A DNA stretch of 64,000 bases from Flavobacteria bacterium BBFL7 (GTDB taxonomy: Bacteria; Bacteroidota; Bacteroidia; Flavobacteriales; Flavobacteriaceae), in the NCBI GenBank assembly GCA_000153385.1, contig CH672374.1:2048544-2112543 (forward strand). Direction: 5' to 3'. Positions 3,873 to 60,272 of this stretch are shown here, piece after piece (position 1 is the first letter of the stretch; each line of letters begins with the position of its first letter). Under the pieces are notes generated by a model. The model made no database searches, had not been told where the DNA came from, and saw only the letters and a program-made list of their open reading frames with translations. The translations under genes were made by a program, and so were the position numbers.

Positions 3873-3888
3873 CGCTTTCGCGAAAGCG
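3873..3888. repeat. 16-bp palindrome copy 1 (intergenic)
   Basis: Exact CGCTTTCGCGAAAGCG, self-complementary, in the divergent intergenic region between gpsA and the 3981 lipoprotein gene. Confidence 0.95.
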
Positions 3889-3980
3889 AATTTGAAACAA
3901 TTTATTTTACTTTAAATGAGTAAGTTAACAAAATGGCACGCTTTTCGCAAACGTTGTAGTAACTATTAAATATTACGATT

Positions 3981-4877
3981 ATGAAAACATTTTACAAAAT
4001 TTTAGGAAGCCTGTTGATTGCGGTGACTATCGCAAGTTGTGATACAGAAGTGGTGATAGGAGATGGTTTTGATAATCGTCCTACACTTAATGAAATCTTG
4101 AGTAATCAAGAGGTGTGGTATGTTGATTTGAACAATACACAAGGAAATCCAGATATTCCATTTATGACTAAAGCCTTTACAGTAAGCTTTGACTTTGGAA
4201 CCTTATATGCAAATAATAATCTAGTTGGAGTAGGTAGTGCTGGTGCTGGTCTAGGGCTAGATGTAGGTAGCTATCAGGTATTAAATAATCAAGTTTCTAT
4301 ACTACATGATATAGATGGATTGCATGATTTTACTGTTGTGGTATTAAATTATAACAGGATTAAAATGATAGATATGCATCGTGGAACGGTATATTATCTT
4401 GATGGTTATAACCGTAACAACTTTGACTATGATCAATTATTCTATGATAATATTCAATATTTCTTACAAGAGTATAAGGCATGGGAAAAAGTGTATACTA
4501 GTAATGTAGGCGCCCTTAATGATTTTGATCAGGAGAATTATTTGCAATTCACTCCAGGTTATAGTGGCGATGAATTTAAAAGTTCTACTGATCGTACAGG
4601 ACTTAATTACAGTAGTTTGTACTGGGATTATACAGGAGAGTATTGGGTGGAAGATGAGACGCCTGGATCAATTAACAAGCATTTAACTATGGATTATGAT
4701 TTTATAGGCAATGATTATTTCGATCTTTACGTTATCAATGATAATACGATTGAATTGTATCATTCTGCATCAGGAACGACATACGAGTTTAAAGGTCGTG
4801 GATACATTCAATTAAAAAATACTACTGAAAAATCTAGGTTAATAGATGCCGGTAGAGTAATTGAAAAAGAAAAGTAA
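3981..4877 (+). CDS. Lipoprotein of unknown function
   Basis: A 298-residue protein. Residues 1-20 form a lipoprotein signal peptide with lipobox TIASC (Cys20), so it should be anchored in a membrane facing the periplasm or the cell surface. The mature part is rich in D, N, Y and G and looks all-beta. Aromatic stretches such as LYWDYTGEYWVED recur, with no catalytic motif that I recognise. Proteins like this beside nadD in flavobacteria have sometimes inherited the nadD product name; nothing here supports an adenylyltransferase role. Monocistronic, with its own terminator downstream. Confidence 0.85.
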   Translation: MKTFYKILGSLLIAVTIASCDTEVVIGDGFDNRPTLNEILSNQEVWYVDLNNTQGNPDIPFMTKAFTVSFDFGTLYANNNLVGVGSAGAGLGLDVGSYQVLNNQVSILHDIDGLHDFTVVVLNYNRIKMIDMHRGTVYYLDGYNRNNFDYDQLFYDNIQYFLQEYKAWEKVYTSNVGALNDFDQENYLQFTPGYSGDEFKSSTDRTGLNYSSLYWDYTGEYWVEDETPGSINKHLTMDYDFIGNDYFDLYVINDNTIELYHSASGTTYEFKGRGYIQLKNTTEKSRLIDAGRVIEKEK

Positions 4878-4893
4878 AAAAATTGGTTGGTTG

Positions 4894-4933
4894 AAAACCG
4901 TCTGTGGATCTCTCAAGATTGCAGGCGGTTTTT
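4894..4933 (+). terminator. Terminator of the 3981 lipoprotein gene
   Basis: Stem AAACCGTCTG/CAGGCGGTTT (one G-U pair) with a ~17-base loop and a T-rich 3' end, 17 bp after the stop codon. It sits between convergent genes and may also serve nadD. Confidence 0.8.
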
Positions 4934-4996
4934 GTTGTTAAAAAGATTATGAAATTATATTATAAAAGTAATTGAGCTAGATAGATATGCTCTTAT

Positions 4997-5584
4997 CTAT
5001 TTATAAAAATTCATTTCTTCAATATACTCTTGTACTTTATGATGCATGAAATAGCGTAGATCTTTACCTTCTTTAATCCCTTTACGTATCATAGTAGAAG
5101 ATATTTCCATAATAGGAGCTTCAATTCTAGTAACACTTTGATGATTAAGTAATTCTTCTGGTATAGTACCGTTTGAAATCCTAGGATAAACGATGATGTG
5201 ATAATCATCTAATATCACTTGATAGTTTTTCCATTTATGAAGACTCTTCAGGTTATCCTCACCCATGATGAGTGTAAAGTTATTATTGGGATATTTTTCA
5301 GATAAGTGAGCTAATGTATTTACTGTATAATTGGGTTGAGGTAGACTGAACTCTGCATTGCTAGCTTTAATTTTTAAGTAATCTTCTGTAGCAATATATA
5401 CCATATGTAAACGCTGATAGTCGTCTAGTAATGTTGATTTTTTTTTATGAGGATTGTGTGGTGTGACCACCATCCATATTTCATCGAGATCACTATTTTC
5501 AATCAGGTAGTTTGCGATAGCAAGATGTCCTATGTGAACAGGATTAAATGTACCAAAGTATAGCCCAATATTACTCTTCTTCAT
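4997..5584 (-). CDS. nadD: Nicotinate-nucleotide adenylyltransferase
   Basis: A 195-residue enzyme that adenylates nicotinate mononucleotide to deamido-NAD in NAD synthesis. The nucleotidyltransferase signature GTFNPVHIGH is at residues ~10-19 and the C-terminal ISSTMIRKGI motif (ISSTxxR) binds phosphate. The frame is open further upstream inside gmk, but ATG 5584 gives the family's usual N-terminus (MKKSNIGLYFGTF) and length. It overlaps the gmk 3' end by 14 bp. Last gene of yicC-gmk-nadD. Confidence 0.95.
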   Translation of the reverse strand: MKKSNIGLYFGTFNPVHIGHLAIANYLIENSDLDEIWMVVTPHNPHKKKSTLLDDYQRLHMVYIATEDYLKIKASNAEFSLPQPNYTVNTLAHLSEKYPNNNFTLIMGEDNLKSLHKWKNYQVILDDYHIIVYPRISNGTIPEELLNHQSVTRIEAPIMEISSTMIRKGIKEGKDLRYFMHHKVQEYIEEMNFYK

Positions 5585-8002: not shown

Positions 8003-8665
8003 TTGAATATTAATAAACGCATAATCAGTACTAAAAAATTAATTAGCTCACAGCAGGAACTGTTAATGTCAGCAGGATTATCTGTAGTTAATTACGATAT
8101 TTTAAAAATTCAAAAACTTAAATTTGAATATCCTAGTAGTTTTTATAATGCTATTATCATTACCAGTATTAATGCAATAGATCCATTATGGAATAGAGTA
8201 GATGGTTCTAAAAAAATATTTGTTGTAGGTGATAAAACAGAAGCAGCATTACTAGAGAAAGGATGGCACGTAGAGGTGAAAGCAAATAATGCGTCAGAGT
8301 TAGCAAAAATCATAATTGCTAATTATGATCATTTAAAATTTGTGTACTTCTGTGGTTTGCATCGCCGCGATGAATTACCTAAAGCCCTTCTGTCGACACA
8401 AATAAATTGTGTAGAGGTAAAAGTGTATGATTCTGTAGCGATAGAAAAGTCATTTGATTGTATTTTTGATGCTGTAATGTTCTTCAGTCCTCGTGGTGTT
8501 CACGCTTTCGCGAAAGCGAACCCTGAAAATATTCATCTAGCGATATGTATAGGGGAAACTACAGCAGCAGCTGCAAGAATATATACTCAAAATGTGAGAG
8601 TGGCACATAAAACCACTGTAGAAAATACGATAGTCACCGCTGTAAAAGCATTACAAAATGATTAA
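8003..8665 (+). CDS. hemD: Uroporphyrinogen-III synthase, TTG start
   Basis: A 220-residue enzyme that closes and isomerises hydroxymethylbilane to uroporphyrinogen III in heme synthesis. Sequence is weakly conserved, as usual for HemD. The first strand IISTKKL, the AIIITSINA segment and the late [10 protein letters not shown] motif fit the family, and position before hemE supports it. The start is TTG at 8003; the first in-frame ATG (8066) would remove the first strand. A 16-bp palindrome lies inside the gene and encodes AFAKA near residue 170. The 3' end overlaps hemE by 8 bp. Confidence 0.85.
8503..8518. repeat. 16-bp palindrome copy 2 (inside hemD)
   Basis: Exact CGCTTTCGCGAAAGCG, read in frame as part of HAFAKAN. 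Confidence 0.95.
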
Positions 8666-12091: not shown

Positions 12092-12107
12092 AGCTTTCGC
12101 GAAAGCG
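12092..12107. repeat. 16-bp palindrome copy 3 (intergenic)
   Basis: AGCTTTCGCGAAAGCG, one outer base different from the consensus, between the MATE gene and the small membrane protein. Confidence 0.93.
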
Positions 12108-14428: not shown

Positions 14429-17170
14429 TTAATGATCCTTTTCGGTTAAATTAATGTCGTTATTATAAAGCTCTAATATGATTTGTATTAATTGTTCCTC
14501 AAACTTATTTAATTCTTCAATATCAATAGGTTGTGCTTGAAAAGATCTGCCTATTTTTACAGAGAAAGGGATGAAACCATCCTTAAAATTTTTGAAACTT
14601 ATAATCCCTGCTGTACATTCTGTAAATGGATTGTTTTTAGAATATAAATATGCATACATTAAAACCTGAAAAGCTTTAGACTTATCATAGCCATCTATTA
14701 GTGCCTCATAATTGTCTGGATCGAGTCCTACATTTGATTTATTTACCATGCCTGACTTATAATCTATAATTCTAGTCCTGCCATTAAGCTCATCTATACG
14801 GTCTACTTCACCATGTAGTTTTATATTTCCTATGGTATCGATAGTTAATGATGTTGAATATCGAGCTTCCAATTTTTTAATGATTAACGTATTACCGCTG
14901 TTGACTAGATTTTGATCATATGCAATCATTTTTTTTACATAATGTTGAGCTACCTCGTACATTATAATATTTTTTCCTTGAGGATCTTGTGCAGTGTGAT
15001 AACTATCTAGATAAGCATTATGGATTGTTTTATTTATTCTAGATCGTATTTCTTTGAAATGCTTTTCGTCTAATATTTGATTTATATAGGGTAGATATAA
15101 CGCTTCAAGGGTTTTGTGAATCATCGTTCCCATAGTATTTGCAGCCATATCTTCTTCTACTTCTTCTACGTCGTTAATCTTTAGGATTTTAGATCGATAA
15201 AAGTCGATAGGGTCATAAATATAGCTAGTAATACTGGACGGTGAAAAACCGGATATCGCTATTTGCTGAAGTCGTTTAAAATAAAAATCGTCTTTCTTTA
15301 TAGAAAGCCCATTCACTGTTTCTGTAGTAATTTTATTGGCATATAGGCGGTGGTTTATCTTATGATTTGCGATATTATTAGTTTCTAATTGCATTAAAAA
15401 CCTACTTTTCTCTCCACCACCTAAACTGCCTGGTTCAGAATTGTAAATAAAGTCAGCATTTTTACATCGCTGTAACAACCTATAAAAGTGGTATGCATAT
15501 ACACTGTCTTTATCAGTGTACGTAGGTAAACCAAATTTAATTTTCATATCATAAGGAATGTATGATGCTGTGGATTTTCCGGCTGGTAAAACGCCTTCAT
15601 TTACGGATAACATAATGATGTGCTCATAGTCTAAGGCTCTAGTCTCAAGTAGCCCCATGACCTGTAACCCTTTAACAGGTTCACCTATAAAGTCTAATTT
15701 TTTTTGAGGTAAAAACTGTTTAAATAAGTATTGAACAGTCCTTAAATCAGTGATGCTAGTTTGAGTGGTTAAGATGGATTTGATTTGTTCAATAACACTG
15801 TTTATTCCTAATAACTGTTCAAGTTCTAGTCGTTTGTTCTCATCATCAATTAGTTTAGACTGCAACGCATTACATATATGACTCAGCTCTTCAATTAAGT
15901 TAGTAGTAGTGTTTGTTTTGAACCTTAATACATTTGTGTAAGCTGTATGAACATTGTGATGGGTATCGATGGAAGGGATGTAAACTAAATTCTCTCTATT
16001 AATAGTCTGAATCAATTCTTTTACAGCAGGTCCATCAAGTAATGTGCTGAAATGTGATTCCAAAACGGCAATAATATTTTTATAATAAAACCCTTGATCT
16101 ACAGCTTCTACTTTTAATCTTATAAGATGATTAAAAAAACTAGCAAGCGGTGTTTTATCTAATGTCAATCCCATGGTGATGTTAAGATGCTTAATATCAT
16201 TAGGAATAGCACTTAACAAGGGTAATAATAATGCTTCATCTGCAAGGACGATAGCCGTTTTGTCTAAATCTGTAGCCTGAATATCAAAGTCGCTAATTAA
16301 TTTTCCGGCAACTTGACACATACCTATAGGACCTGATGTACCTATGATGTTTATGTTTTTTAGGGTGTTGAAATTTGAACTGGTAATGTTGAATTTCTCT
16401 TTATTGAAATACTTCCATTCATTCTTATAACGTCTTATAAATCGGCCAGCTTCATGGTATTCATTTTCTTGAAAATATTGATCGCTATCATAGAAAATTG
16501 TAGCATTTTCACTTTCGAGAAAGATTTTAATAATCTCTTCTTCGGCTTTATTTAGGGCGTTTAGACCTAGAAAAACGATAGGTGTTTCTTTGTTATATTG
16601 TTTGGATTGTTGTTCCGCTTTCGCGAAAGCGAGTCTGTAAGCAAGACCTTGATAAACAATACCTTTTGAAGTACAGTCTTCTGTAAATTGATTATAATAC
16701 AATTCTAACCGTTTCCAGAAATGTAGATATTTTTCTATCATCTCTGTCTTAGGTTCTAAAATAGACCAGTGACCTTGTTCGAGCTCTTTTAAATTGCCTA
16801 AGTAATTGAAAAAGTCAGTAGGTGGTACGAGAAATCGATCGATTTCATTAAAGTCTTTTAGTATAGTTGGAGCCCAAGTAATAAATTCATCAAGGGAATC
16901 TGCGGTATTATTATTTTCTATTTTAAGATAGCTGTTGTAAAAGTCAAATAGTAAATCTACATCACTAGCTATTTCTACTTGTGCGGTATGACTTATAAAA
17001 TCTTCAACACTATAAATAATAGGTTCAAAAATAGGTTGGTCTAAATAGGTCGCAATGGTTTTATTAAGGAATGTTGCGACTCTTCTACTGGGAACGACAT
17101 ATGTGAGTTTGCTAAGGTTGAAGCCTTGGTTTTGCAAGGTCCCGATAACGTCTTGTAGGAATGTATTCAT
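14429..17170 (-). CDS. AddB-like PD-(D/E)XK nuclease / inactivated helicase subunit
   Basis: A 913-residue protein resembling the AddB subunit of the AddAB recombination nuclease, which works with the AddA-like protein (19995-23174) at double-strand breaks. The N-terminal half is a degenerate UvrD-type helicase domain. The C-terminal RecB-type nuclease motif is LHGEVDRIDELN followed by RIIDYKSG (~790-815), with catalytic D, E and K present. I do not see the four-Cys Fe-S cluster of Bacillus AddB. In contrast to typical addBA operons, kbl and ompA separate it from the AddA-like gene. A palindrome inside encodes AFAKA. Confidence 0.82.
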   Translation of the reverse strand: MNTFLQDVIGTLQNQGFNLSKLTYVVPSRRVATFLNKTIATYLDQPIFEPIIYSVEDFISHTAQVEIASDVDLLFDFYNSYLKIENNNTADSLDEFITWAPTILKDFNEIDRFLVPPTDFFNYLGNLKELEQGHWSILEPKTEMIEKYLHFWKRLELYYNQFTEDCTSKGIVYQGLAYRLAFAKAEQQSKQYNKETPIVFLGLNALNKAEEEIIKIFLESENATIFYDSDQYFQENEYHEAGRFIRRYKNEWKYFNKEKFNITSSNFNTLKNINIIGTSGPIGMCQVAGKLISDFDIQATDLDKTAIVLADEALLLPLLSAIPNDIKHLNITMGLTLDKTPLASFFNHLIRLKVEAVDQGFYYKNIIAVLESHFSTLLDGPAVKELIQTINRENLVYIPSIDTHHNVHTAYTNVLRFKTNTTTNLIEELSHICNALQSKLIDDENKRLELEQLLGINSVIEQIKSILTTQTSITDLRTVQYLFKQFLPQKKLDFIGEPVKGLQVMGLLETRALDYEHIIMLSVNEGVLPAGKSTASYIPYDMKIKFGLPTYTDKDSVYAYHFYRLLQRCKNADFIYNSEPGSLGGGEKSRFLMQLETNNIANHKINHRLYANKITTETVNGLSIKKDDFYFKRLQQIAISGFSPSSITSYIYDPIDFYRSKILKINDVEEVEEDMAANTMGTMIHKTLEALYLPYINQILDEKHFKEIRSRINKTIHNAYLDSYHTAQDPQGKNIIMYEVAQHYVKKMIAYDQNLVNSGNTLIIKKLEARYSTSLTIDTIGNIKLHGEVDRIDELNGRTRIIDYKSGMVNKSNVGLDPDNYEALIDGYDKSKAFQVLMYAYLYSKNNPFTECTAGIISFKNFKDGFIPFSVKIGRSFQAQPIDIEELNKFEEQLIQIILELYNNDINLTEKDH
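16616..16631. repeat. 16-bp palindrome copy 4 (inside AddB-like gene)
   Basis: Exact CGCTTTCGCGAAAGCG, read in frame as LAFAKAE on the minus strand. Confidence 0.95.
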
Positions 17171-19994: not shown

Positions 19995-22900
19995 TTAATT
20001 CCAGATCAGTTCTTTAAGCTCATCAGTATAAATCAATACCTTTTCCTTTATTTTATAATTCATCTGTTGTAATAGAGCTGCATAATAATCTAATTGATCT
20101 CTGTGCTTCTCTAGCTGTGCTCCTGTTTTATAATCTATTATAGTCACCTGCTGATCTTCAATGATAAGTCTGTCTGGAATAAACTTTTTACCTTCAGGAG
20201 TTAAAATTCCTCGTTCGTTTAAAATATTCAAATTAGATCTAAAATATTTTTCAAAATATAATGGACTAATGATTAAACGTAGCGTTTCAATTAACTCTGT
20301 CTTTAGTAATGAAGATATGTAATCATCTCTTTCTATTTTTAGGATTACATCGGGCATATCATCTATAGACTCAATCTGTGCCATGTAATCATGCAATAAA
20401 TTACCTTTATTAATAGCTTCCTGTACACCGCTAGCCCATAATAAACCGCGACGAGTAGAAAAATTTGCTCTTGAAGAGTTAGATTGAGTTTCATAATTGC
20501 CTAATGTAAAAGTAGGCATGCTAGACGTGTTAGGTGATAATTTAACTTTAGTTCCTTTTTGAAATGAGCTAACTTGATCATTTTCAGTTTTTTCCCAAGA
20601 TGTAGTGTTGTTATCTAAATAACGCTTTAATAATTGTCCATGTCGCAACGAGGTTTCTTTTTGGCTTTTAGATTCGGGTTTTTCAATACTACAAATGTAT
20701 AATTGTTCTACCGCTCGAGTAAAAGCAACGTATAGTCCATTTATATGATCCATTTGTGTATTATGAAGGTGTGTGTTGTACACCTGTCTAGCTTGATCTG
20801 GATAAAATTCTGAATCCTTTGATAAAGACATATATAAGTGTTCAAACCCTTCATAAGCCTCTGGATTTACAGAAACCCAATTAGTAGGCTTTAAAGAATG
20901 ATTAATACTAGTGTCACAATAAGGGACGATCACGACTGGGAATTCTAGGCCTTTAGATTTATGAATTGTCATAATCTGCACCGCTTTGGGATCAGGCGTT
21001 GCCGGAACACTTAACTTTTCTTTCTTTTTATCCCAGTGTTCTAAAAATCTTGATAAGGAAACATCTTGACCGTTTGAAAATTCAAATACCAATTCTAGAA
21101 AAGATTGCAACCTTAGATCTTGGTGTTGAAACAATCCTAAAGCTTGTGCTGTTTGTTCTGTTGCCTTAAATAAGGGCGCTTTCGCGAAAGCGGACTCCAT
21201 AAAAGTTGAATTGCTTTCAAAAAGCTTTTCAGTCATTTCATGAATAGATAAATTAACATGTTGTGTTATAAAAGAGTTTTTTTGATCAATCTGATGATAC
21301 TGAACATACTCGAGTAAAAATCCTAATTTAAGAGCTTGCTGATCTGGTTGATGAGCCATTTTCATAAACTCAATCAATAAACGCACACGTGGAGAGGCCT
21401 CAACGAGTAGACTGTCTCCAGAGACAACTGTTATTTCTTGTTTTACTAAATATTGTGCAAGTTCATGGCCTTGTGTGTGTTTGCGCACTAGTATGCATAT
21501 GTCGCCTAGTTCATAGCCTTGCTCTAAAATGTTTTCAATTAGACTATGGACGTGTGGAGGATATGGAGTGTTTAAATCATCATCATCGTCATAACTAAAG
21601 TTTGTATTATCTAAAAAATCGATTTGAGTATAACCTCCTTTTTTATGAGTCGTTTTTTGATGTAGGTAATTCTGATATAAATTTTTGTAGGTATCGTTGT
21701 TTAGGTAATCGCCGTAGAATTTAAAAAACTCGTTGTTAAATTCTATGACATTATGATAGCTGCGCCAGTTAAATTCTAGTGTCTGATTACTTTTTTCTAA
21801 TTCAAATAAATAGTCTTCTTCTAATAATCCTAAAAATTGATTTGCATCACTACCACGCCATCTGTAAATGGATTGTTTTGCGTCTCCTACTAACATTAAT
21901 GTACCGCTATTGCCATTATCATCAATACTTTGCACAGCATTACTTATTAATGGGATCATGTTTTCCCATTGCATGCGTGATGTGTCTTGAAATTCATCAA
22001 TAAAATAATGGCGGTATTTTTCTCCTAACCTTTCATAAATAAACGGTGCAGGCTGATCTTTTATCTGATTTCTTAAAATGCTGTTGAACTCATATATAGG
22101 GACAATTTGCTCTTCTTTTTTAATGACATTAATCTCATTTAATAGTTCATTGAGTAGTGATAATGGGACAATACTTTTAATGATGTTTTCATGAAACTTA
22201 ATATATCCGTAGGTGGATTTATAGGCATCACCAAATTCTAATATGTCAGCACGTAGAACATCTATACAGTCTTTGATATGTTGTTTTTGAGTTTTTGCGT
22301 ATAAATTTCCTGCAATTAGGTCTTTCACAGATCCTGAATCTGGGCTTACAGTAAAAATATCATTTGAGACTTTTACTATTGTATTGAAAATACTGTTAGA
22401 ACCGCCTTTAAAATCCTTAGGCTCTAATCCTTGTTGCTTCGACTTTTCATTAAGTCCTATTGCTAGTTCAATTAAATGTGTCTTTAGGTCTTTGTTTTTA
22501 AGTTTTAGATTTTGAGAAAGCCTATCAAAATCTTCACTAGTCTTTTCTTCTAAAGATTTTAGATATTTAAAATGGTTTTCATTTTTTATCAATGCAGATA
22601 TTTGCATCAGATCGTAAGCGACATCCCAACTTTTATTATTATCAATTTTGGAAAGTGAAAAGCTTACTAGTTTTTTAGTAAGTTCCTTATCCCTACCTGC
22701 ACGAGCGAGTAAATTTTGAATTGCCTTATTAATTAAAGAATCTGTATCTAACTCTACTTCAAATCCAGCTGGCAAATCAATGTCTTTGGCAAAAGTGCGC
22801 AAGATGCGGTGATTAAATGCATCAATTGTAACGATGTCAAAAGCAGAGTAGTCATGTAATAAACGTTGATGGATTTTAATTGCTTTTGTTGAGAGCTGTT

Positions 22901-25383: not shown

Positions 25384-27282
25384 CTAATAAGCTCGCTCAT
25401 CATTCTTTTCAAAGAAGTTGATGTAAGCACGATTTACAACACGATTACCACCATTAGTAGGGTAATCACCTGTAAAGTACCAGTCACCTAAGTTTTTAGG
25501 GCAAGCTTTATGTAAATTATCTACGGTTTGATAAACGATTTTTACTTCTGCATTTAAATCATCGTCTGAGAGTAACTCACCTATCTTGTTGGACACTTCT
25601 TGATCTGTAAACGGTGCATAGAGTTCCTTTACATAGTTGATCACATCCTTATCTTTAAAGTCGACTTGTGACTTACATTTTTTATAAATCTGTTCTACAG
25701 TGTCATAGGTGCCACGATCTTCATGTAAAGCAAGTGCTGCTCTAAAAGCAACTAGTCCTTCAAGTCGTGCCATATCTATACCATAACAATCAGGATATCT
25801 TATTTGTGGTGCACTAGAAACAACTACAATTTTCTTAGGCTTTAAACGATCCATCATCTTAAGAATGGATTTTTTAAGAGTGGTTCCTCGTACGATAGAA
25901 TCATCAATGATTACCAAGTTGTCATTTTCTTTTACCACTCCATAGGTTACATCGTAAACGTGTGCCACTAAATCGTCTCGAGAAGAATCCTCTGTGATAA
26001 AGGTTCTCAACTTTGCATCTTTAATCGCAATCTTTTCAGTTCGCAGCTTTCGCGAAAGCGTGTCCTCAACCTCTTGAGCGGTTAGTTTACCTTCGCCGGC
26101 TAGAATAGCATTCCTTTTTTCTACATCTAGTGCCGCATGTGCCGCTTCTACCATACCATAGAAGGAAGTCTCTGCCGTATTAGGGATGTATGAGAAAACG
26201 GTATTATCTATATCATGGTCAATAAACTCCATGATTTTAGGAAACAATAGATGTCCTAATTTTTTACGCTCTTGATAAATCTCGGCATCGCTACCACGAG
26301 AGAAATAAATACGTTCAAAAGAACAGGCTTTACGTTCTAGTGGTTTCAGTATTTGTTCAATACTTACTTTACCATTCTTTTTAATGATAATAGCTTTACC
26401 TGGGTCTAGTTCTTTTACTTCTTCAAACGGTGCATTAAACGCAGTTTGAATTACAGGTCGTTCACTAGCAACAACAACTACTTCATCATCTTGATAGTAG
26501 TATGCTGGTCTAATACCAGATGGATCTCTTAATAGGAAAGCGTCTCCATGTCCCATAAGTCCACCCATGGCATAACCACCATCCCAGTCTTTTGCACTTT
26601 TCTTTAAAACTTTAGCAACGTTAAGTTGTTCAGCTATTTTAGGTGAGGATTCCATTTTAGAAAGTCCTTCAGCCTTGAATTTTTTATATAATTTTGAAAC
26701 CTCACGATCTTGAAAATGACCTACCTTTTCCATAACAGTTACGGTGTCTGCCATGTCTTTAGGATGCTGTCCTAGTTCTACTAGTTTGTCAAATAACTCA
26801 AACACGTTAGTCATGTTAAAATTACCAGCCATGATTAAGTTGCGATGCATCCAGTTGTTCTGACGTAAAAACGGATGTACTGATTCAATACTGTTTTTAC
26901 CGAAGGTGCCATAGCGCACGTGTCCCATCATCAACTCACCTATGTAAGGGATTTGAGCTTTTTGAGCAGCGACATCATCCTTGATTTCTGGATGTTCTTC
27001 TAACTCTGTATTAATGCGCTCATTAATTTGAGCAAATATATCCTGTATAGGTTGTGCCTCATTACTGCGCACACGAGAGATGTATCGTTGTCCAGGTTTT
27101 ACATCTAATTTTATACTTGCAAATCCAGCACCATCCTGACCGCGATTGTGCTGTTTTTCCATCATTAGGTACATTTTATTGATACCATAAAATGCCGTAC
27201 CATATTTCTCTTTATAATATTCAAGAGGTTTAAGAAGTCTAATAAGTGCTATACCACACTCGTGTTTTAATGGATCGCTCAT
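25384..27282 (-). CDS. purF: Amidophosphoribosyltransferase
   Basis: A 632-residue enzyme for the first committed step of purine synthesis (PRPP + glutamine to phosphoribosylamine). The N-terminal nucleophile hydrolase domain has its Cys in HECGIALI at residue 9, implying removal of a short propeptide. The phosphoribosyltransferase domain has VIIDDSIVRGTTLKKS. It is longer than E. coli PurF (505 aa), as in other Bacteroidota, with an extra segment before the PRPP loop. Within that segment a 16-bp palindrome encodes TLSRK. It has its own promoter box behind the pfkB terminator. Confidence 0.95.
   Translation of the reverse strand: MSDPLKHECGIALIRLLKPLEYYKEKYGTAFYGINKMYLMMEKQHNRGQDGAGFASIKLDVKPGQRYISRVRSNEAQPIQDIFAQINERINTELEEHPEIKDDVAAQKAQIPYIGELMMGHVRYGTFGKNSIESVHPFLRQNNWMHRNLIMAGNFNMTNVFELFDKLVELGQHPKDMADTVTVMEKVGHFQDREVSKLYKKFKAEGLSKMESSPKIAEQLNVAKVLKKSAKDWDGGYAMGGLMGHGDAFLLRDPSGIRPAYYYQDDEVVVVASERPVIQTAFNAPFEEVKELDPGKAIIIKKNGKVSIEQILKPLERKACSFERIYFSRGSDAEIYQERKKLGHLLFPKIMEFIDHDIDNTVFSYIPNTAETSFYGMVEAAHAALDVEKRNAILAGEGKLTAQEVEDTLSRKLRTEKIAIKDAKLRTFITEDSSRDDLVAHVYDVTYGVVKENDNLVIIDDSIVRGTTLKKSILKMMDRLKPKKIVVVSSAPQIRYPDCYGIDMARLEGLVAFRAALALHEDRGTYDTVEQIYKKCKSQVDFKDKDVINYVKELYAPFTDQEVSNKIGELLSDDDLNAEVKIVYQTVDNLHKACPKNLGDWYFTGDYPTNGGNRVVNRAYINFFEKNDERAY
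26045..26060. repeat. 16-bp palindrome copy 6 (inside purF)
   Basis: AGCTTTCGCGAAAGCG, one outer base different. On the minus strand it is read in frame as TLSRK, a different frame from the AFAKA copies. Confidence 0.93.
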
Positions 27283-38873: not shown

Positions 38874-41237
38874 TTATTGGAACGTCAGTTTCATCTTCAC
38901 ATCATTCCCGTCTTCATCTACAGCGGTAATTATATGTTTTCCTTGAGCGGCACTTAGTGCTATTTCATGAAAATCTTTAGTGCTCGTTATATAGTCTACG
39001 TCGAGATACCAATAGACTGTTGTATTAGGAATTTTGTGGGCTAGTTCAAAAACAGTCTCGTTTGTTTTTCCTTCTATGTTTTTAGTAAGCGTAATGGTTG
39101 TTCCAGTGTTAGGTCTTATAAAAGTCATGACATTTTCTACAAGTGATTCACAATCTGCTCGATAGGGTGGAAGTGGTTCATAATCGGGATGTGTTCTACG
39201 GTAGTACCAGGCCATTACTGGTGGTAAGGTGAAATAGGATTTGGTGACCATTTGGGAAACTGGTTCACAATCTGCGTTTACCTGATAGGATTGTGTAGCA
39301 TCGAGTTGCACGAGTTGATGATAAGGACAGGAATCATAACGTTCTCCTACGGCAGGAATCCATTGTTGCTCTGCTTCACAATCTGGTGTAGCGAGATAAC
39401 CTGACTTTTTACAGATATCTATTTCAACCATATCATCATACGGCGGCGCAAACCATTCTTCTTGTGGTAATCGGTTGAATAAGTCAAATAATACTGGTGC
39501 AGCACTTTTGATTCCGGTCATTTCGGCACGTCCTTCACCATCGGCATTTCCAGTCCATACTCCTATGACATATCGTGGCGTGACTCCTATTGCCCAGGCA
39601 TCTCTATTTCCATAGCTGGTTCCTGTTTTCCAAGCCATGTTGTGATTAGGATTAAAAAAGTGCCAGATCTCTTCGCCTTCTGGTCGGTTGACATCTTTCA
39701 TGGCTTCAAAGGTGTGGTAAATACTTCCTGCACCGTAAATATTAGGTGTTGTTTTTAAGTCCGCTTTCCCTTCGACAAGCTCAGGACGGCGCGCGGTCGC
39801 GTCTCCATCATTAATCACATAATGCAATCCATCCATGACGTTGTGATTGTATTCACTACTAGTTTGAGTGTAGTCTTTTAAAATGGTTGCCATAGATAGA
39901 TAAGCATGGCTCATGTCCCATAAACTGCTCTCGCCGCCACCTATGATAAGGCTGAGCCCATAAGTTCCCGCACCACGATTGATATGTGATTGACCTAAGT
40001 CTTGTAATTTATCATAGAACCGTGTTACACCATGATCGCGCAACATGCGCACCGCAGGTACATTGAGTGATCGCGATAAGGCTTGTGAAGCCGGAACAGC
40101 ACCGCTATAATTCTTGTCAAAGTTTTGTGTGTTATAACCGTTAATAACCGTAGGTATATCTTTTACCAGACTGTGCGGTAACAGTTCGCCATTATCCAGC
40201 ATGGTGGCATATAAAAAGGGTTTCAAGACGCTGCCAGTACTACGTGGAGCGGTAATAATGTCCACATCTTTCTGGTGCTCTCTGGTAGTAGGAGCATTTC
40301 CCACATAAGCAGATACCGATTGGTTTTCAATGTCTAGAACTAACATGGCGAGGTTGTTAATACCGTTTTGCTTCAGAATATGATGATGATTTTGTACGAT
40401 GCGGTTGACTGTTTCTTGCATTTGATAATCAATCGTGGTTCTGATTTTTTGAGTGCCGTATTGCTTATTTGCTCTATTCAATAAATGAGGTGCCAGTTGC
40501 GGTACTCTAAAATCTCGAGTAGGAACAGATTCTGAAACAGCCAGTTCATAATCCATATCATCAATGATGTTTTCCTGTTTTAACTTGAGCAGTAATGCAT
40601 CTCGTTTTTCTCTAAGCTGACTTTCTCTTTTACCAGGATAAATTAAACCTGGTGCATTAGGCAAAACAGCCAGCGTGGCACTTTCTGCCCAGCTGAGTTC
40701 GTGTGGTTTTCTTCCAAAATACCGCCACGACGCCATATCGAGTCCTATCACATTACCACCATAAGGCGCATGAGAAGCATAGAGTTCTAAAATTTCTTCT
40801 TTAGATAATCTCAACTCAAGCCTTGTCGCCCAGATAAGTTCTATAAATTTCTCGTAATATTTTCTATCCTTTTTTCGCGCAAGCCTAATCACTTGCTGTG
40901 TAATTGTACTACCACCACGCACGACTTTGCCAGCGTTTATGTTTTCTTTAAAAGCCTTAACAATAGAAACTGGATTGAATCCTGGATGCGCGTAAAAATG
41001 CGCATCTTCATATTGCAACAAACACTTTTTATATTTATAGGGAACACTATCTACCGCAGGAAATCGCCACTGATCATCGCTGGCGATATGTGCGTCGAGC
41101 AAGCGACCATCACTACTTTCTATAACTGTCGAGTAGGGAACATCAAATAATTGCTTTGGCAAGCACAACGTATACCACACGAGTAGTATAAAAACGATGC
41201 TTAATTTGAATTTATGTTTGAACAGGAATTTTTTCAC
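38874..41237 (-). CDS. pbpC: Penicillin-binding protein 1C
   Basis: A 787-residue bifunctional peptidoglycan synthase with one N-terminal membrane helix (~12-28). The glycosyltransferase GT51 domain has Glu in LQYEDAHFYAHPG, RGGSTITQQV and the later ELYASHAPYGGNVIG. The transpeptidase has STGSVLKP (Ser-x-x-Lys), SRSLN and KTGTS. The C-terminal region (~690-787) matches the PBP1C beta domain. Within the transpeptidase region an in-frame insertion reads ARRPELVEGK and coincides with a dispersed DNA repeat. No alpha-2-macroglobulin gene, its common partner, is adjacent. Confidence 0.93.
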   Translation of the reverse strand: MKKFLFKHKFKLSIVFILLVWYTLCLPKQLFDVPYSTVIESSDGRLLDAHIASDDQWRFPAVDSVPYKYKKCLLQYEDAHFYAHPGFNPVSIVKAFKENINAGKVVRGGSTITQQVIRLARKKDRKYYEKFIELIWATRLELRLSKEEILELYASHAPYGGNVIGLDMASWRYFGRKPHELSWAESATLAVLPNAPGLIYPGKRESQLREKRDALLLKLKQENIIDDMDYELAVSESVPTRDFRVPQLAPHLLNRANKQYGTQKIRTTIDYQMQETVNRIVQNHHHILKQNGINNLAMLVLDIENQSVSAYVGNAPTTREHQKDVDIITAPRSTGSVLKPFLYATMLDNGELLPHSLVKDIPTVINGYNTQNFDKNYSGAVPASQALSRSLNVPAVRMLRDHGVTRFYDKLQDLGQSHINRGAGTYGLSLIIGGGESSLWDMSHAYLSMATILKDYTQTSSEYNHNVMDGLHYVINDGDATARRPELVEGKADLKTTPNIYGAGSIYHTFEAMKDVNRPEGEEIWHFFNPNHNMAWKTGTSYGNRDAWAIGVTPRYVIGVWTGNADGEGRAEMTGIKSAAPVLFDLFNRLPQEEWFAPPYDDMVEIDICKKSGYLATPDCEAEQQWIPAVGERYDSCPYHQLVQLDATQSYQVNADCEPVSQMVTKSYFTLPPVMAWYYRRTHPDYEPLPPYRADCESLVENVMTFIRPNTGTTITLTKNIEGKTNETVFELAHKIPNTTVYWYLDVDYITSTKDFHEIALSAAQGKHIITAVDEDGNDVKMKLTFQ
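39768..39805 (-). repeat. Dispersed repeat inserted in pbpC (encodes PELVEG)
   Basis: CCCTTCGACAAGCTCAGGAC followed by GC-rich GGCGCGCGGTCGCG, unusually GC-rich for this genome. The minus-strand core CCTGAGCTTGTCGAAGG is a widely seen bacterial dispersed repeat and is translated in frame as PELVEG. Confidence 0.7.
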
Positions 41238-42250: not shown

Positions 42251-44648
42251 TTGACGGGATTGAATCGGTCACTATGGTAGGCCTATTAAGTGTTATATAG
42301 CGTTTTCTTAAAATAGCATCGTTAAGAACAAACGGCATACTCATTTGCTCTAATGGTCTAGGTTTTACATCTAATGCCTTGGTTTTAAGTAAGTCAAATG
42401 ACGCTGCATAGAACTGAAATTCTGGCTCCACATCAGCTTTAAAAGTAAGTTCTAATTCTAATGGTTCATTGTTAGTTACATAGTAGCTCAACATGCGATT
42501 TCCCCATCGATTAGGTAAAGCCTTTTTAGAGACTTTGGCCTTATAAACTTCTCTACCGTTTACTTTTCCGTCTTCAAATACATAAGTCGTATCGCAAAAC
42601 ACTTCTAGACGCTGGATGACAGATTCACTGTAGATTTTCATTTTTACTGTTCTTAAATCTGCGTGTAAACTATCAATTAATGTTTCTACCATTACAGGAG
42701 CTAATTCTTTATAAGGTGCTGTGGCTGCATAGCTGAAACCGGTACCGTATTTTGAATCGATAGTGTTTTTATTAAGCTCGCTGGCTGCTGCTGGCGATTC
42801 TCCCAGTTTTGCTTTGGTCCAGTCTGTCAGGACTTCGTCATATGTGGCCCATTGTGCGGTCTGGTCGTCTTGGTTTTGTATGTAGACTAGACTGGTTGAT
42901 TGTGGTTGTGATGGTGTGAATTCCGCTTTCGCGAAAGCGTATCCCACACAAACTAACGTTGCTATCAATCCTATGAAGGATAGTAGGTCTTTCCTGCGAT
43001 AATGTCCAATAATAGGAATTAATAAACCAATCAATAGTGTGGTAAGAATAGCGGCTACAAATAAAATTCCCATACCTAGTGCCACTGGAAATGCTTTGAC
43101 AAACGGTGTGAAAATGAACAAGGCAGGTACCGCGAGAATAACGAGTAAAATGTAACTAGGTCTGCGCTGGTTAATATTGAGCCATACCATAAGCAATCCT
43201 GCTATGAGCGGTACTAGAAAGAATCCGGCACCTGGTAAAAATACACCTGGTATTAAACCACCATCATCTACAGGGAATGCTATTAATAAACAAACCAGCC
43301 ACAAAATAAATAATGGCGCGATACTTAAACTAGCTACATTATCCTTCTTATAATATTTATGATACAAAAAGAAACACAAGGTTGCTGCTGTCATTGCCGC
43401 TGCTGCGATAAGCCAATAACCGTTGTATGGAAAACCATGTTGCTGATCGACATAAAAAGAGCCACTTTTGATTCCTACCCAACCATAGTTACTTAATAAA
43501 TACCCTATGATTAAACTACCTAAAAACGGGACAAATCCTGCCAAAATCTGACCAAAGGAAATGCGTCTTTTTCTAATACCATAAACAATGAGTACTACTA
43601 ATAATAAACCGCTACCTATAATTAAAAATGGCAGCCATTTAAAGGGAAAACTCACCATTTTAATGATGGGCATAGGGAAATAAACGTAATCATCACCTTC
43701 AGGAACTTTGAGCTCATCACTAAGGTCGATGTTTGATAAATGATTCATCAATGGCATTAAATAGGCGCCTTGATGAGCTAGTGTATTGCGATCTAAGCGC
43801 TCATAGTTATCTAATTCTGTATGGTAGTCATAATGATCACCTATGAAGGCAAAATTAAGTCCATTGATATCGCCATCTTTTCTAAAAACGGTGAGGTCAG
43901 TATCATTAGGAATCATTTTATATATACTGTAGGCAAGTGAGTTGGCCACTGGATATTCTACTCCAGCATTTGAAAATTCTTTAATAATCTTGCGGTTACC
44001 ACCATTAGTTTCTACAAGCATATAACTAGGTCCACCGCTACCACGAGCTTCAAAGTTAAGAACCATCGCAACGTCTTGTGCCCATGGATGTTCATTCACA
44101 AAAAGTTCTGCACCGTTAAGCCCTAGTTCTTCAGCATCAGTAATACAAATTATAATGTCATTAAGAGGTTGTTTATTTTGAGCAAGAAACGTGCGCACAC
44201 CTTCTAAAATGGTAGCGACACCACTAGCAGCATCGCTGGCACCTTTACTAGAATGTGGATCGCTGTCATAGTGACTTAATAATAAAAGAGCTTTACTGTT
44301 TTCTTGAGAACCTTTAATACGTGCCAGAATATTTTCTGGATTTGCCAGGTTTCCCCATGGATCCATGGTGTAGCCTTTTTGGGTAGTAACTTGCAATCCC
44401 ATTGATTGCAGTTGAGTAACAATATAGTCTCTTACATCATCATGGGCTGCACTACCTACATGGTGAGGTTGTACAGACATCGCCTTAACGTGTTCTAACG
44501 CTCTTGCCGTAGACCATTCAGTGGCTGGTAAATTATCTTCTACTGTAGCAGATGGAGTCTCACTATAAAATACATACCATATGATTGCAACAATTGTTAG
44601 AAACGATAATGCTGATGATAAATGGGATTTAGGTTTAAAGGATCTCAT
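42243..44648 (-). CDS. M28 family membrane metallopeptidase
   Basis: An 801-residue membrane protein with one N-terminal helix (~14-28). An M28 aminopeptidase domain (~45-305) follows with zinc ligands His in LLSHYDSDPHS, Asp in GASDAASG, the Glu pair in DAEELGLNGA and His in GDHYDYHTE. About eight transmembrane helices (~330-590) and a C-terminal beta domain end the protein. This layout recalls eukaryotic ERMP1/Pff1-type peptidases. The catalytic domain should face the periplasm. A palindrome lies in the last helix as YAFAKAE. Cotranscribed with the SDR gene. Confidence 0.9.
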   Translation of the reverse strand: MRSFKPKSHLSSALSFLTIVAIIWYVFYSETPSATVEDNLPATEWSTARALEHVKAMSVQPHHVGSAAHDDVRDYIVTQLQSMGLQVTTQKGYTMDPWGNLANPENILARIKGSQENSKALLLLSHYDSDPHSSKGASDAASGVATILEGVRTFLAQNKQPLNDIIICITDAEELGLNGAELFVNEHPWAQDVAMVLNFEARGSGGPSYMLVETNGGNRKIIKEFSNAGVEYPVANSLAYSIYKMIPNDTDLTVFRKDGDINGLNFAFIGDHYDYHTELDNYERLDRNTLAHQGAYLMPLMNHLSNIDLSDELKVPEGDDYVYFPMPIIKMVSFPFKWLPFLIIGSGLLLVVLIVYGIRKRRISFGQILAGFVPFLGSLIIGYLLSNYGWVGIKSGSFYVDQQHGFPYNGYWLIAAAAMTAATLCFFLYHKYYKKDNVASLSIAPLFILWLVCLLIAFPVDDGGLIPGVFLPGAGFFLVPLIAGLLMVWLNINQRRPSYILLVILAVPALFIFTPFVKAFPVALGMGILFVAAILTTLLIGLLIPIIGHYRRKDLLSFIGLIATLVCVGYAFAKAEFTPSQPQSTSLVYIQNQDDQTAQWATYDEVLTDWTKAKLGESPAAASELNKNTIDSKYGTGFSYAATAPYKELAPVMVETLIDSLHADLRTVKMKIYSESVIQRLEVFCDTTYVFEDGKVNGREVYKAKVSKKALPNRWGNRMLSYYVTNNEPLELELTFKADVEPEFQFYAASFDLLKTKALDVKPRPLEQMSMPFVLNDAILRKRYITLNRPTIVTDSIPSNE
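42924..42939. repeat. 16-bp palindrome copy 9 (inside M28 peptidase gene)
   Basis: Exact CGCTTTCGCGAAAGCG, read in frame as YAFAKAE on the minus strand. Confidence 0.95.
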
Positions 44649-54175: not shown

Positions 54176-54191
54176 CGCTTTCGCGAAAGCG
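54176..54191. repeat. 16-bp palindrome copy 10 (intergenic)
   Basis: Exact CGCTTTCGCGAAAGCG, 14 bp after the stop of the fibre-like gene. Confidence 0.95.
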
Positions 54192-56589: not shown

Positions 56590-56606
56590 CGCTTTCGCCA
56601 AAAGCA
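56590..56606. repeat. Degenerate copy of the 16-bp palindrome
   Basis: CGCTTTCGCCAAAAGCA: the left half is intact and the right half has changed, between the ArsC-like and cystathionine genes. Probably a decayed copy. Confidence 0.6.
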
Positions 56607-57845: not shown

Positions 57846-57860
57846 AAGATATTATTACAA

Positions 57861-57891
57861 AAAAAAGGCAGCCTTATGGCTGCCTTTTTTT
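57861..57891 (+). terminator. Terminator of the cystathionine enzyme gene
   Basis: Perfect stem AAAAAAGGCAGCC/GGCTGCCTTTTTT with loop TTAT and T tail; likely also serves the convergent gene at 57905. Confidence 0.93.
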
Positions 57892-57904
57892 ATATGAAAA
57901 TAAT

Positions 57905-58675: not shown

Positions 58676-58697
58676 GATTATGGTATTGGTAAAGCGA

Positions 58698-58705
58698 CAA
58701 ATATA
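58698..58705 (-). promoter_or_regulatory. -7 promoter box of the 57905 gene
   Basis: TATATTTG on the minus strand, 22 bp before the ATG at 58675. Confidence 0.58.
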
Positions 58706-58854
58706 ATAAAATGTAAAGGATACCTGTGATAGTATAAACTGTTTAAAATATGAAGTTTATGTCAAGTACACTTTACTATAACGTCATAAAGTCGCGACTA
58801 TTCTTTAACTCCTTAAATAAATGACAAAATTTATATCACTATGCTACATTAATA

Positions 58855-58862
58855 TATATTTG
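58855..58862 (+). promoter_or_regulatory. -7 promoter box of gdhA
   Basis: TATATTTG, 47 bp before the gdhA ATG, with a TTTA 21 bp upstream as a weak -33 candidate. Confidence 0.55.
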
Positions 58863-58909
58863 CAGTATCAACGAAAACGTTTTCTTTAAACGTAATTATT
58901 ATTATAATA

Positions 58910-60253
58910 ATGGAAAAAAACATAGAAAGTTTTATCGATTTGATAAAAAGTAAGAACCCTAATGAGCCAGAATTTATCCAGGCGGTTAGTGAAGTAGCAG
59001 AAGCTGTTATACCTTTTATCGAGAACAATCCTCAATACGCTAGTGATAAATTACTAGAACGCATGGCCGAGCCAGAACGCGTAACAATGTTCCGTGTACC
59101 TTGGACAGATGATAATGGAGAGGTTCAAGTAAATCGCGGTTACCGCATACAAATGAATAGTGCTATTGGTCCTTATAAAGGTGGATTAAGATTTCACCCA
59201 TCTGTTAATTTGAGTATCCTTAAGTTTCTAGCATTTGAGCAAGTTTTTAAAAATAGTTTGACAACTTTACCGATGGGTGGTGGTAAAGGTGGTGCTGACT
59301 TTAACCCAAAAGGAAAATCAGATCGTGAAGTAATGCGTTTTTGCCAATCATTTATGGTTGAATTACAACGTGTAATAGGTGCTGACACAGATGTTCCTGC
59401 AGGAGATATAGGAGTAGGTGGTCGTGAAATAGGCTATCTATTTGGTTATTATAAGAAATTAAGAAATGAATTTACGGGTATACTTACTGGTAAAGGACGT
59501 TCTTATGGTGGGTCTTTAATACGTCCAGAAGCAACAGGTTACGGTAACGTATACTTTGCAGAAAATATGTTGAAGACACGTGGTGAATCTATTACAGGTA
59601 AAACTACGGTTATTTCAGGATCTGGAAATGTAGCTCAATATGCTGCAGAAAAAATATTACAGTTAGGTGGTAAAGTAGTTACCATGTCTGATTCTGGTGG
59701 TTATATCCACGATGCAGATGGTATTGATGCAGATAAGCTTGCCTTTGTAATGGATCTTAAAAATAATAGACGTGGTCGTATATCAGAATATGTATCACAA
59801 TATCCTAGCGCAACCTATCATGAAGGTGAACGTCCATGGTCTGTTAAATGTGATATCGCATTGCCATGTGCTACTCAAAATGAGTTGAACGGTGATGAAG
59901 CAAAAACATTAGTTTCTAATGGTTGTATGTGTGTAAGTGAAGGTGCAAATATGCCTAGTACACCTGACGCTATAGAACATTTCATTGACAATAAAATTTT
60001 ATTTGCTCCAGGAAAAGCGTCTAACGCTGGTGGAGTAGCTACTTCTGGTCTGGAGATGTCTCAAAACTCTATGCGTTACAGCTGGACTGCCGAGGAAGTG
60101 GATAATAAACTTCATGGTATCATGAATGATATTCACGAGGCTTGTGTAGAATACGGAAAAGATAGTGATGGATTTGTAGACTATGTAAAAGGTGCAAATA
60201 TCGCTGGATTTGTTAAAGTAGCAGACGCTATGCTAGCACAAGGAATTGTTTAG
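58910..60253 (+). CDS. gdhA: NADP-specific glutamate dehydrogenase
   Basis: A 447-residue hexameric enzyme that aminates 2-oxoglutarate to glutamate. Catalytic Lys residues are in GPYKGGLRFHPSV and LPMGGGKGGADFNPKG (~112-128), GDIGVGGREIGYLFG follows, and the nucleotide-binding loop is VISGSGNVAQYAAEK (~231-245). Length and the Ser in the loop fit the NADP-type biosynthetic form. Monocistronic; a palindrome and a terminator lie just downstream. Confidence 0.96.
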   Translation: MEKNIESFIDLIKSKNPNEPEFIQAVSEVAEAVIPFIENNPQYASDKLLERMAEPERVTMFRVPWTDDNGEVQVNRGYRIQMNSAIGPYKGGLRFHPSVNLSILKFLAFEQVFKNSLTTLPMGGGKGGADFNPKGKSDREVMRFCQSFMVELQRVIGADTDVPAGDIGVGGREIGYLFGYYKKLRNEFTGILTGKGRSYGGSLIRPEATGYGNVYFAENMLKTRGESITGKTTVISGSGNVAQYAAEKILQLGGKVVTMSDSGGYIHDADGIDADKLAFVMDLKNNRRGRISEYVSQYPSATYHEGERPWSVKCDIALPCATQNELNGDEAKTLVSNGCMCVSEGANMPSTPDAIEHFIDNKILFAPGKASNAGGVATSGLEMSQNSMRYSWTAEEVDNKLHGIMNDIHEACVEYGKDSDGFVDYVKGANIAGFVKVADAMLAQGIV

Positions 60254-60256
60254 TAT

Positions 60257-60272
60257 CGCTTTCGCGAAAGCG
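60257..60272. repeat. 16-bp palindrome copy 11 (intergenic)
   Basis: Exact CGCTTTCGCGAAAGCG, 3 bp after the gdhA stop codon and before its terminator. Confidence 0.95.

Follow-up and report, generated by a model that had tools for sequence, protein, structure and literature searches.

A dyad-symmetric palindrome, evenly spaced and conserved in position along Nonlabens chromosomes, is a putative protein-binding site

The window analysed here, a 64-kb stretch of a Nonlabens genome (Flavobacteriaceae), carries eleven copies of a short palindrome that recurs in great excess throughout that genome. The copies lie within a longer symmetric motif, are spaced more evenly than random and largely hold their positions between related species. 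We consider it highly probable that the palindrome is a site for a protein. Taken as a whole, our best explanation, a selected dyad-symmetric protein-binding site with an architectural role in the chromosome, stands somewhat short of an even chance.

Palindrome copies in the window, the genome and the family

Exactly the eleven copies counted in an earlier note on this DNA were recovered from the window (Table 1), nine being perfect CGCTTTCGCGAAAGCG and two having A as first base. With up to three mismatches allowed, 0.08 matches are expected in the window, and none of 100 shuffles reaches 11. All eleven occurrences of the decamer TTTCGCGAAA are embedded in the full 14-mer. The decayed copy that the earlier note reported is genuine, as the aligned position in the relative G016 holds an intact palindrome, and a second lost copy that it did not list is indicated by palindromes in G016 and G011 that are interrupted in the window.

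Table 1. Intact, decayed and lost palindrome copies in the 64-kb window, with their state in related genomes
Feature	Position	Context	State in relatives
Palindrome copy, exact	3873..3888	Intergenic, between divergent genes; motif includes ~17-bp arms on each side	14-mer kept in G016 and G011; single-base deletion in the G001 draft
Palindrome copy	8503..8518	Within 8003-8665 ORF, encodes AFAKA	Intact in G016, G001 and G011
Palindrome copy, first base A	12092..12107	Intergenic	14-mer intact in G016 and G011; one mismatch in G001
Palindrome copy	16616..16631	Within AddB-like gene (AFAKA)	
Palindrome copy	21177..21192	Within AddA/RecB-like gene (AFAKA)	
Palindrome copy, first base A	26045..26060	Within PurF-like gene (TLSRK)	
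Palindrome copy	29952..29967	Within purN (AFAKA)	In 4/4 aligned Nonlabens; no indel versus one outgroup
Palindrome copy	36394..36409	Within 36291-36956 ORF (TLSRK)	Kept in G016 and G011; single-base deletion in the G001 draft
Lost copy	39762..39801	Interrupted by sequence with CCTTCGACAAGCTCAGG (alignment)	Palindrome in G016 and G011
Palindrome copy	42924..42939	Within 42243-44648 ORF (AFAKA)	Intact in G016, G011 and G001
Palindrome copy	54176..54191	Intergenic, ~15 bp past stop codon	One mismatch in G016 and G001; intact in G011
Decayed copy CGCTTTCGCCAAAAGC	56590..56605		Aligned position intact in G016
Palindrome copy	60257..60272	Intergenic, ~4 bp past stop codon	14-mer kept in G016 and G011; single-base deletion in the G001 draft

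The window's genome holds 551 exact copies of GCTTTCGCGAAAGC and none of the reversed pattern that served as control; the near-random genome-wide count that could have reduced the earlier observation to a local cluster is not what was found. Near-misses are few and the 14-mer core is sharp, with 101 exact, 12 one-mismatch, 7 two-mismatch and 20 three-mismatch copies in 544 kb, the last being the control level. Across three species, 166 of 267 copies are coding.

All 22 other Nonlabens members searched carry the palindrome, with 288-857 copies each, as do two more Flavobacteriaceae genera with 408 and 857 copies. The remaining genera searched have zero or at most 19 copies, and most of the Flavobacteriaceae genera searched lack it; among those searched, the palindrome is confined to Nonlabens and the two other genera. 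In one stretch from each of 20 other genera (19 of 20 kb and one of 15.8 kb) palindromes of at least 10 bp never recurred as many as 3 times, while the same survey showed the motif in 5/5 Nonlabens stretches used as controls. Additionally, genome G063 has relic-like palindrome copies, and no alignment spanned the five sites there that were compared with Nonlabens. In open-licence PubMed Central the motif is described nowhere among the matches listed; the 12-, 14- and 16-mer do not occur in that text, and the 10-mer TTTCGCGAAA does, in 10 papers.

Extended arms, spacing and conservation of position

The conserved unit is longer than 16 bp, as symmetric A-rich, G-poor arms extend about 18 bp outward on each side. 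At 131 sites the frequency of G is 0.071 at positions +4 to +18 versus 0.163 farther out, and this G-poor pattern is repeated at 36 sites of 8 other Nonlabens and at 165 sites of G020 and G002. The arms recur in distant species and are absent around chance copies; at 93% of 296 sites the scores of both exceed the control mean, with a matrix built from the same sites. Base-by-base matching of left and right arms is no higher than in shuffled pairs, and their scores correlate weakly (0.11-0.12). Symmetric recognition of double-stranded DNA is therefore favoured over an RNA hairpin, and a hairpin or terminator is further disfavoured by most sites being coding and by the intergenic ones being distributed over gene orientations roughly as the available space. 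A phasing of base composition in the arms at ~10 bp is only suggestive. The motif of E. coli DNA gyrase is likewise long and dyad-symmetric with arms, and its ~10-bp phasing has been read as bending, but as described it is a degenerate 130 bp (PMC6379681) whereas the core here is near-invariant.

Along the chromosome the copies are spaced more evenly than random. The coefficient of variation of 140 inter-site gaps is 0.60, and one gap is shorter than 1 kb where 23 are expected. Fano factors of counts per 20 kb in three species are 0.33, 0.30 and 0.54; 8-mers of comparable count have medians of 1.0-1.2. The repulsion between sites is not absolute, as one pair in G002 lies 109 bp apart. None of 61 spread 20-kb samples from G000, G020 and G002 is free of sites, and in this coarse sampling, which a small zone could escape, neither a large region of exclusion nor a depletion near the terminus was seen. 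Three 20-kb stretches of G000 that were picked for gaps in the site listings do lack a site, which speaks against a strict need for one every 5 kb; in one of them (L239), the 3 ORFs scanned of its 12 larger ones gave metabolic-type matches.

Position is conserved to a far greater extent than ordinary sequence. The relatives G016 and G011, whose DNA identity to the window is 86-87%, keep 10 and 11 of the eleven window sites (21 of 22 combined), whereas only 21% and 26% of ordinary aligned 14-mers are intact; a third relative, the draft G001, keeps only 6. For example, the copy in the AddB-like gene is present in 5/5 aligned Nonlabens and in neither of two outgroups, with no indel at the site. 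The copy in the AddA/RecB-like gene occupies the same column and is exact in 10/12 Nonlabens (not G009 or G015), again in 0/2 outgroups. Both genes score under the curated NCBIfam cut-offs. That in the PurF-like gene is exact in 10/12 (not G006 or G013) and in 10/10 of a second alignment, and its 12-mer core is present also in G270 and G286.

At such coding sites homologous codons are replaced by the palindrome without an indel relative to outgroups, the residues dictated being AFAKA, RFRES and LSRK. Where its origin is visible, which was checked in coding sites only, the palindrome arose by substitution and not by insertion. No sign of mobile-element insertion was found, and no window site aligned to the three relatives shows a clean insertion with target duplication.

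A putative protein site and its possible readers

In the explanation that we favour, the palindrome would form the core of a dyad-symmetric DNA site of 50-70 bp. Its reader, acting on double-stranded DNA, would be a sequence-specific protein, homodimeric or of higher order, which may also bend or wrap the arms. Selection would hold about one site per 4-7 kb along carrier chromosomes, and the protein would mark regular chromosome segments, perhaps anchoring topology, loops or segregation. Prophages, integrated elements and other long-resident DNA of the chromosome would gain and keep sites. An architectural role is our favourite for the putative protein site, albeit a tentative one. The fullest form, a lattice in which one dedicated protein reads hundreds of long dyad-symmetric sites ~5 kb apart, at positions largely fixed in the genus and at the expense of protein sequence, with prophages and integrated elements acquiring sites too, may be true, though we would sooner doubt than assert it. 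Against this explanation stand the reader candidates examined, none of which fits, the imperfect repulsion, the loss of 5 of 11 window sites in G001, the site-free stretches of G000, the many genera of the family that do without the palindrome, and the expectation that uptake sequences too would be evenly spaced and conserved in position.

The parS and Noc-binding sites are palindromes of 14-16 bp bound by homodimers and are thus similar in form, but the Nonlabens palindrome has another sequence and hundreds of copies all round the chromosome. ParB_N matches once in 20 of the 23 Nonlabens genomes, as it does in most genomes outside the genus, with extra matches in 3 members only; a Noc or ParB paralogue was accordingly rejected as genus-wide reader, and no dedicated ParB-family reader was found. 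Stretch L229 of G019 has no match to a block of G033 and carries an ordinary 299-aa ParB, not one of 616 aa. The type II topoisomerase A-subunit family has two matches in most of 59 genomes with no carrier-specific paralogue, so that an extra enzyme of this type was also rejected, a further difference from the gyrase system. Of the roles raised in the earlier note, those in nucleoid organisation, in uptake and in repair are still live candidates.

Alternative explanations

The strongest alternative is that the palindrome is a self-DNA tag for natural transformation, as in Haemophilus and Neisseria, spread and preserved by uptake and recombination; we regard this as unlikely but worth serious attention. 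The uptake sequences known so far are oriented, and a palindrome offers no oriented, non-palindromic core. Like the USS of Pasteurellaceae and the DUS of Neisseriaceae, it is abundant, evenly spread and clade-specific, with AT-rich flanks about its core, and its clade restriction fits a tag. Haemophilus uptake sequences are described as numerous and fairly evenly distributed, their GC core being flanked by AT-rich tracts (PMC7811141), and Riemerella columbina is described as favouring its own DNA (PMC7965970). However, the palindrome is perfect with equal arms on both sides, unlike the oriented sequences described in PMC2346458, and its core is sharp, the 101 exact copies being accompanied by few one-mismatch neighbours and not by the many graded near-misses of uptake sequences. 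Its sites also avoid each other below 1 kb, whereas 23% of strong Haemophilus sites have another within 100 bp (PMC7811141). Unlike USS and DUS, the Nonlabens palindrome is present in some phage contigs too.

Less probable still is that the palindrome marks self DNA for an enzyme of DNA processing or defence, comparable to Chi for RecBCD or AddAB, so that site-bearing DNA is spared or repaired and the rest degraded. The density of about one per 5 kb is near that of E. coli Chi, and Chi too varies in sequence between clades. Three stretches of viral contigs in which phage structural genes occur (L159, L161 and L177) carry 2-3 copies per 12-15 kb, the multi-copy stretches as a set having Nonlabens-type arms, and mobile-element-like clusters are dense in copies, as if sites aid invading DNA. 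On the other hand, the 35.7 and 35.0 kb of two Nonlabens phages contain not a single copy, and homologues of AddA and AddB occur in two outgroups that show no exact site in the 17.7 and 23.1 kb examined. Chi sites are oriented sequences of 5-8 nt, whereas the palindrome is a double-stranded 14-16-mer, twice as long, with extended arms and no possible orientation.

That the palindrome is of the HIP1 type, owing its origin and upkeep to DNA methylation and mismatch repair according to the model of PMC4390886, appears very improbable. HIP1 as described there is also a short GC-rich palindrome with many copies and clade-dependent occurrence, and is said to propagate by nucleotide substitution (a reference title in PMC4390886). 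The likeness to highly iterated palindromes drawn in the earlier note holds in so far as the copies are genome-wide and far over expectation, lie within and between genes and arose by substitution, seen here in coding sites only. The Nonlabens palindrome differs from them or goes further in its exact 14-mer core, its symmetric arms, its excess evenness, its conservation of position, its confinement to three of the genera searched and its copies in some phage contigs and mobile-element-like clusters. Neither GCGATCGC nor an alternate octamer is present in the core, which is a 14-16-mer without GATC, as against 8 bp in HIP1, and the host belongs to the Bacteroidota. Cyanobacterial genomes with such palindromes are described as generally having matching methyltransferases (PMC4390886), a point in favour of a HIP1-type origin, but here PF00145 and PF01555 are each absent from 9/21 carriers searched (25 carriers are known), and G006, G007 and G009 lack both. 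C5 and PF01555 methyltransferases were consequently rejected as universal reader, and the methylation role suggested in the earlier note is weakened, neither family tested being in all 21 carriers. The HIP model also leaves the arms beyond 16 bp and the repulsion between sites unexplained.

Finally, a miniature REP-like mobile repeat spreading by insertion, which the many near-identical palindromic copies would fit, can practically be dismissed, as REP and REPIN elements are extragenic and insertion-spread while these copies are mostly coding, show no indel versus outgroups in proteins, and have flanks of graded base preferences whose left and right arms vary independently; an insertion element was rejected on the same lack of indels.

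What purpose is served by one short palindrome filling some bacterial chromosomes has been open since HIP1. Compared with the known cases, that of Nonlabens seems cleaner, given its near-exact core, symmetric arms, repulsion, conserved positions and sharp presence or absence between genera, which allow a reader to be sought by comparison of gene content and put to a direct test. If the lattice is true, it would represent a novel type of chromosome organiser in bacteria, both regular and sequence-coded; if the palindrome is an uptake tag, such a tag would have evolved independently in Bacteroidota. Both outcomes would constrain how a DNA-level code overrides protein sequence at hundreds of loci.

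Copy number and taxonomic range of the palindrome

All 11 palindromes that the earlier note had reported in the window were recovered in place, nine as perfect 16-mers and two with A as the first base, and its view that essentially none would occur by chance holds up, with 11 observed versus an expectation of 0.08 when up to three mismatches are allowed. A genome-wide count, which that note had asked for, gave 551 exact copies of the 14-mer core GCTTTCGCGAAAGC in the window genome (G000; 3.10 Mb in 7 contigs) and none of the backwards pattern. Allowing up to three mismatches raises the G000 total to 792 places, versus 154 for the control. A 544-kb sample of this genome contains 7 two-mismatch copies in addition to those in the table, with the three-mismatch count at control level.

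Palindrome copies, evenness and coding status in samples of G000 and two further genomes, G020 and G002 (Fano factors are for counts per 20 kb)
Genome	Exact copies	One-mismatch copies	20-kb stretches	Fano factor	Median Fano, 8-mers of similar count	8-mers with Fano as low	Coding sites	Coding fraction of DNA
G000	101	12	24	0.33	1.09	0 of 461	68/101	0.88
G020	78	12	17	0.30	1.21	0 of 64	45/78	0.89
G002	88	6	20	0.54	1.03	2.6% of 313	53/88	0.87

The window genome is placed in Nonlabens, family Flavobacteriaceae, on protein similarity, since its AddA-like protein has 82-83% identity to two records from named Nonlabens ulvanivorans strains. Our survey of 148 genomes covered Nonlabens (23, with the window genome among them), other genera of the family (66) and other families of the order (59). 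The palindrome is present in all 23 genus members at 288-857 copies each, the lowest count belonging to a 78% complete genome. It occurs at 1-17 copies in 11 of the 66 genomes from other genera, with none in the remaining 55, and is absent from all 59 genomes of other families. A wider draw of 397 genomes of the family revealed two more genera with hundreds of copies, represented by G270 (408) and G286 (857); counts are 1-19 in each of the other 74 matching genomes, and the reversed control is present in a single genome of this draw.

Even spacing and symmetric arms

Gaps between copies in G000 (n = 140, from three stretches) average 5.5 kb with a coefficient of variation of 0.60, and only one is shorter than 1 kb versus 23 by the exponential law. 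Among the matches listed, the coefficient is 0.67 in G270, 0.72 in G286, 0.42 in G002 and 0.46 in G016, a relative aligned to the window. Evenness is weakest in G286, where 0.9% of simulations are as low, and repulsion is not absolute, as one G002 pair lies 109 bp apart. None of the 61 20-kb stretches sampled from G000, G020 and G002 is empty. Three further G000 stretches, chosen for gaps in site listings, have zero palindromes; together they contain 31 ORFs of 200 aa or more, of which 10 were scanned. One (L240) gave a reverse transcriptase match, another (L238) an AAA protein just above the AAA_21 cut-off together with a beta-lactamase-family protein, and the third (L239) phosphoglucomutase, radical SAM and beta-lactamase-family matches. 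The gaps at L238 and L240 are possibly island DNA.

Flanking bases were read outward from the 14-mer to either side at 131 G000 sites. G occupies position +1 in 88%, and A occupies +3 and +4 in 60%. Between +4 and +18 G is scarce (0.071 versus 0.163 at +37 to +60); it recovers to normal levels over +19 to +22 and falls a second time over +23 to +29 (0.105). Eight other Nonlabens (36 sites), G020 (78) and G002 (87) show the same pattern; it is weaker in G270 and G286 (18 sites; G 0.122 versus 0.178), and it is present whether a site is coding or noncoding. The two arms of a site resemble each other no more than shuffled pairs do (0.339 versus 0.339), and their side scores correlate weakly (0.11-0.12). 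In 93% of 296 sites each arm scores higher than the mean of controls, by a matrix built from those very sites. The motif thus exceeds 16 bp. With respect to the axis, A-rich positions lie at about 10, 17, 20 and 31-35 bp, which hints at helical phasing.

By a simple ORF call, the palindrome favors noncoding DNA about four- to sixfold per base when its coding share is set against the much higher coding fraction of each genome (table). Gene orientation around intergenic sites roughly tracks the available space.

Origin, conservation and possible transfer of sites

Where sites within genes were aligned to outgroups, they are not insertions. In AddA, AddB, PurF and PurN, compared with one or two outgroup proteins each, the palindrome takes the place of homologous codons without an indel at the site, with single-residue gaps 5-8 residues away in two of these alignments. 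Depending on the reading frame it dictates AFAKA, RFRES or LSRK. Relatives of the window genome keep most positions: G011 (87% identity over aligned bases) retains 11 of 11 window sites intact versus 26% of all aligned 14-mers, and G016 (86%) retains 10 of 11 versus 21%. A third relative, G001, retains 6 of 11; three of its five lost sites lack a single base, in one case within a reading frame (L040-L043), probably through draft sequencing errors. At 39762-39801 of the window, the palindrome of relatives is broken by sequence holding CCTTCGACAAGCTCAGG, a 17-mer with a single copy in the window and a 14-base core with one occurrence in the other 480 kb of G000 sampled. One AddA site is kept exactly by 10 of 12 Nonlabens; some turnover of sites is indicated, since only 3 of 12 have a second one in this gene (RFRES).

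A phylogeny of PurF from 30 genomes recovers its 10 Nonlabens as one clade (support 100/100). G270 and G286 pair weakly (83/62) within a supported group (100/98) that includes G224, a genome with only 9 copies. The two carrier lineages are not sisters on this tree, with the separating joins lacking strong support (86/89 and 83/32). All 10 Nonlabens of the tree have the identical 14-mer at identical PurF codons; in a second set it is present in 10 of 12, and G006 and G013 keep the residues without the exact 14-mer. The 12-mer core CTTTCGCGAAAG occupies precisely these codons in G270 and G286, the next base outward being C or A because their isoleucine codon requires it. In the other 18 tree genomes the best match near this place has at least 5 mismatches. 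Because the same place in PurF is occupied in carriers that lie apart on the tree, this one gene suggests either that the palindrome system predates the split of the two lineages and was lost repeatedly, or that the same place was hit twice. In G063, 6 exact copies and 19 with one mismatch are spread across numerous contigs and are possibly relics left after loss of the system.

Among the matches listed, other low counts are clustered in G158 (4 in 11 kb), G167 (5 in 22 kb), G281 (4 in 33 kb), G042 (3 in 29 kb), G295 (4 in 16 kb plus 2 elsewhere) and G072 (12 in 38 kb on a single contig), and unclustered in G430 (3 on three contigs) and G429 (5 scattered). A pair exactly 933 bp apart is common to G181, G158, G295 and G167, which belong to four different genera, and G042 has a one-mismatch copy 933 bp from an exact one; this recurrence across genera points to one conserved mobile element. 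We infer that the clusters are mobile elements that went through carrier hosts, with contamination a possible alternative in drafts such as G072. A block of G033 matches ParB-bearing regions of two Nonlabens, at 93% over 3.5 kb in G014 and at 83% over 5.3 kb in G018, with which it has one palindrome site in common. These blocks, which carry palindromes and a 616-aa ParB frame and lie in stretches L218-L224 (G033 contig C18), L230 and L231, are probably an integrative element.

Viral contigs contribute at least 120 stretches with the palindrome, 11 multi-copy and 109 single-copy among the matches listed. The multi-copy stretches (18 distinct sites) have the arm signature, with outer G at 0.83 and G at 0.111 from +4 to +18. 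The single-copy stretches (84 sites) are without it (0.36 and 0.249), as chance copies would be, though some of these stretches come from contigs with more copies. Three of four multi-copy stretches tested (L159, L161 and L177) carry portal, head, tail or terminase genes; in the fourth, L127, the one protein scanned gave no match. The cultured phages P12024L and P12024S (Persicivirga host, listed as Nonlabens phages) have zero palindromes. Neither (L196, L197) contains a TCGCGA hexamer in about 35 kb each, which is possibly avoidance and, as the two are related, counts as one observation.

Candidate readers and the role of the palindrome

Equal arms that vary independently around a strict two-fold core, as here, are the trace expected from a symmetric protein complex bound to double-stranded DNA. 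Their width is reminiscent of the indirect readout through DNA bending that has been described for the E. coli gyrase motif of 130 bp (PMC6379681), though that motif is degenerate. Among candidate readers, no genus-wide ParB paralogue and no carrier-specific extra type II topoisomerase was found, and neither of two methyltransferase families tested occurs in all 21 carriers searched. The likeness to highly iterated palindromes drawn in the earlier note is upheld in broad traits, and not for HIP1 itself or for a methyltransferase link in these two families; arms, repulsion and positions held genus-wide are absent from the portion of the HIP account in PMC4390886 that was consulted. The palindrome was not described in the literature searched (open-licence papers, among the matches listed).

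The strongest rival to a structural function is drift of an uptake sequence, which also accounts for evenness and conservation. A Chi-like mark on the DNA would account for sites on some invading DNA. In our judgement, an architectural role is the best fit to even spacing, repulsion, cover of the whole chromosome and the sites in resident mobile DNA.
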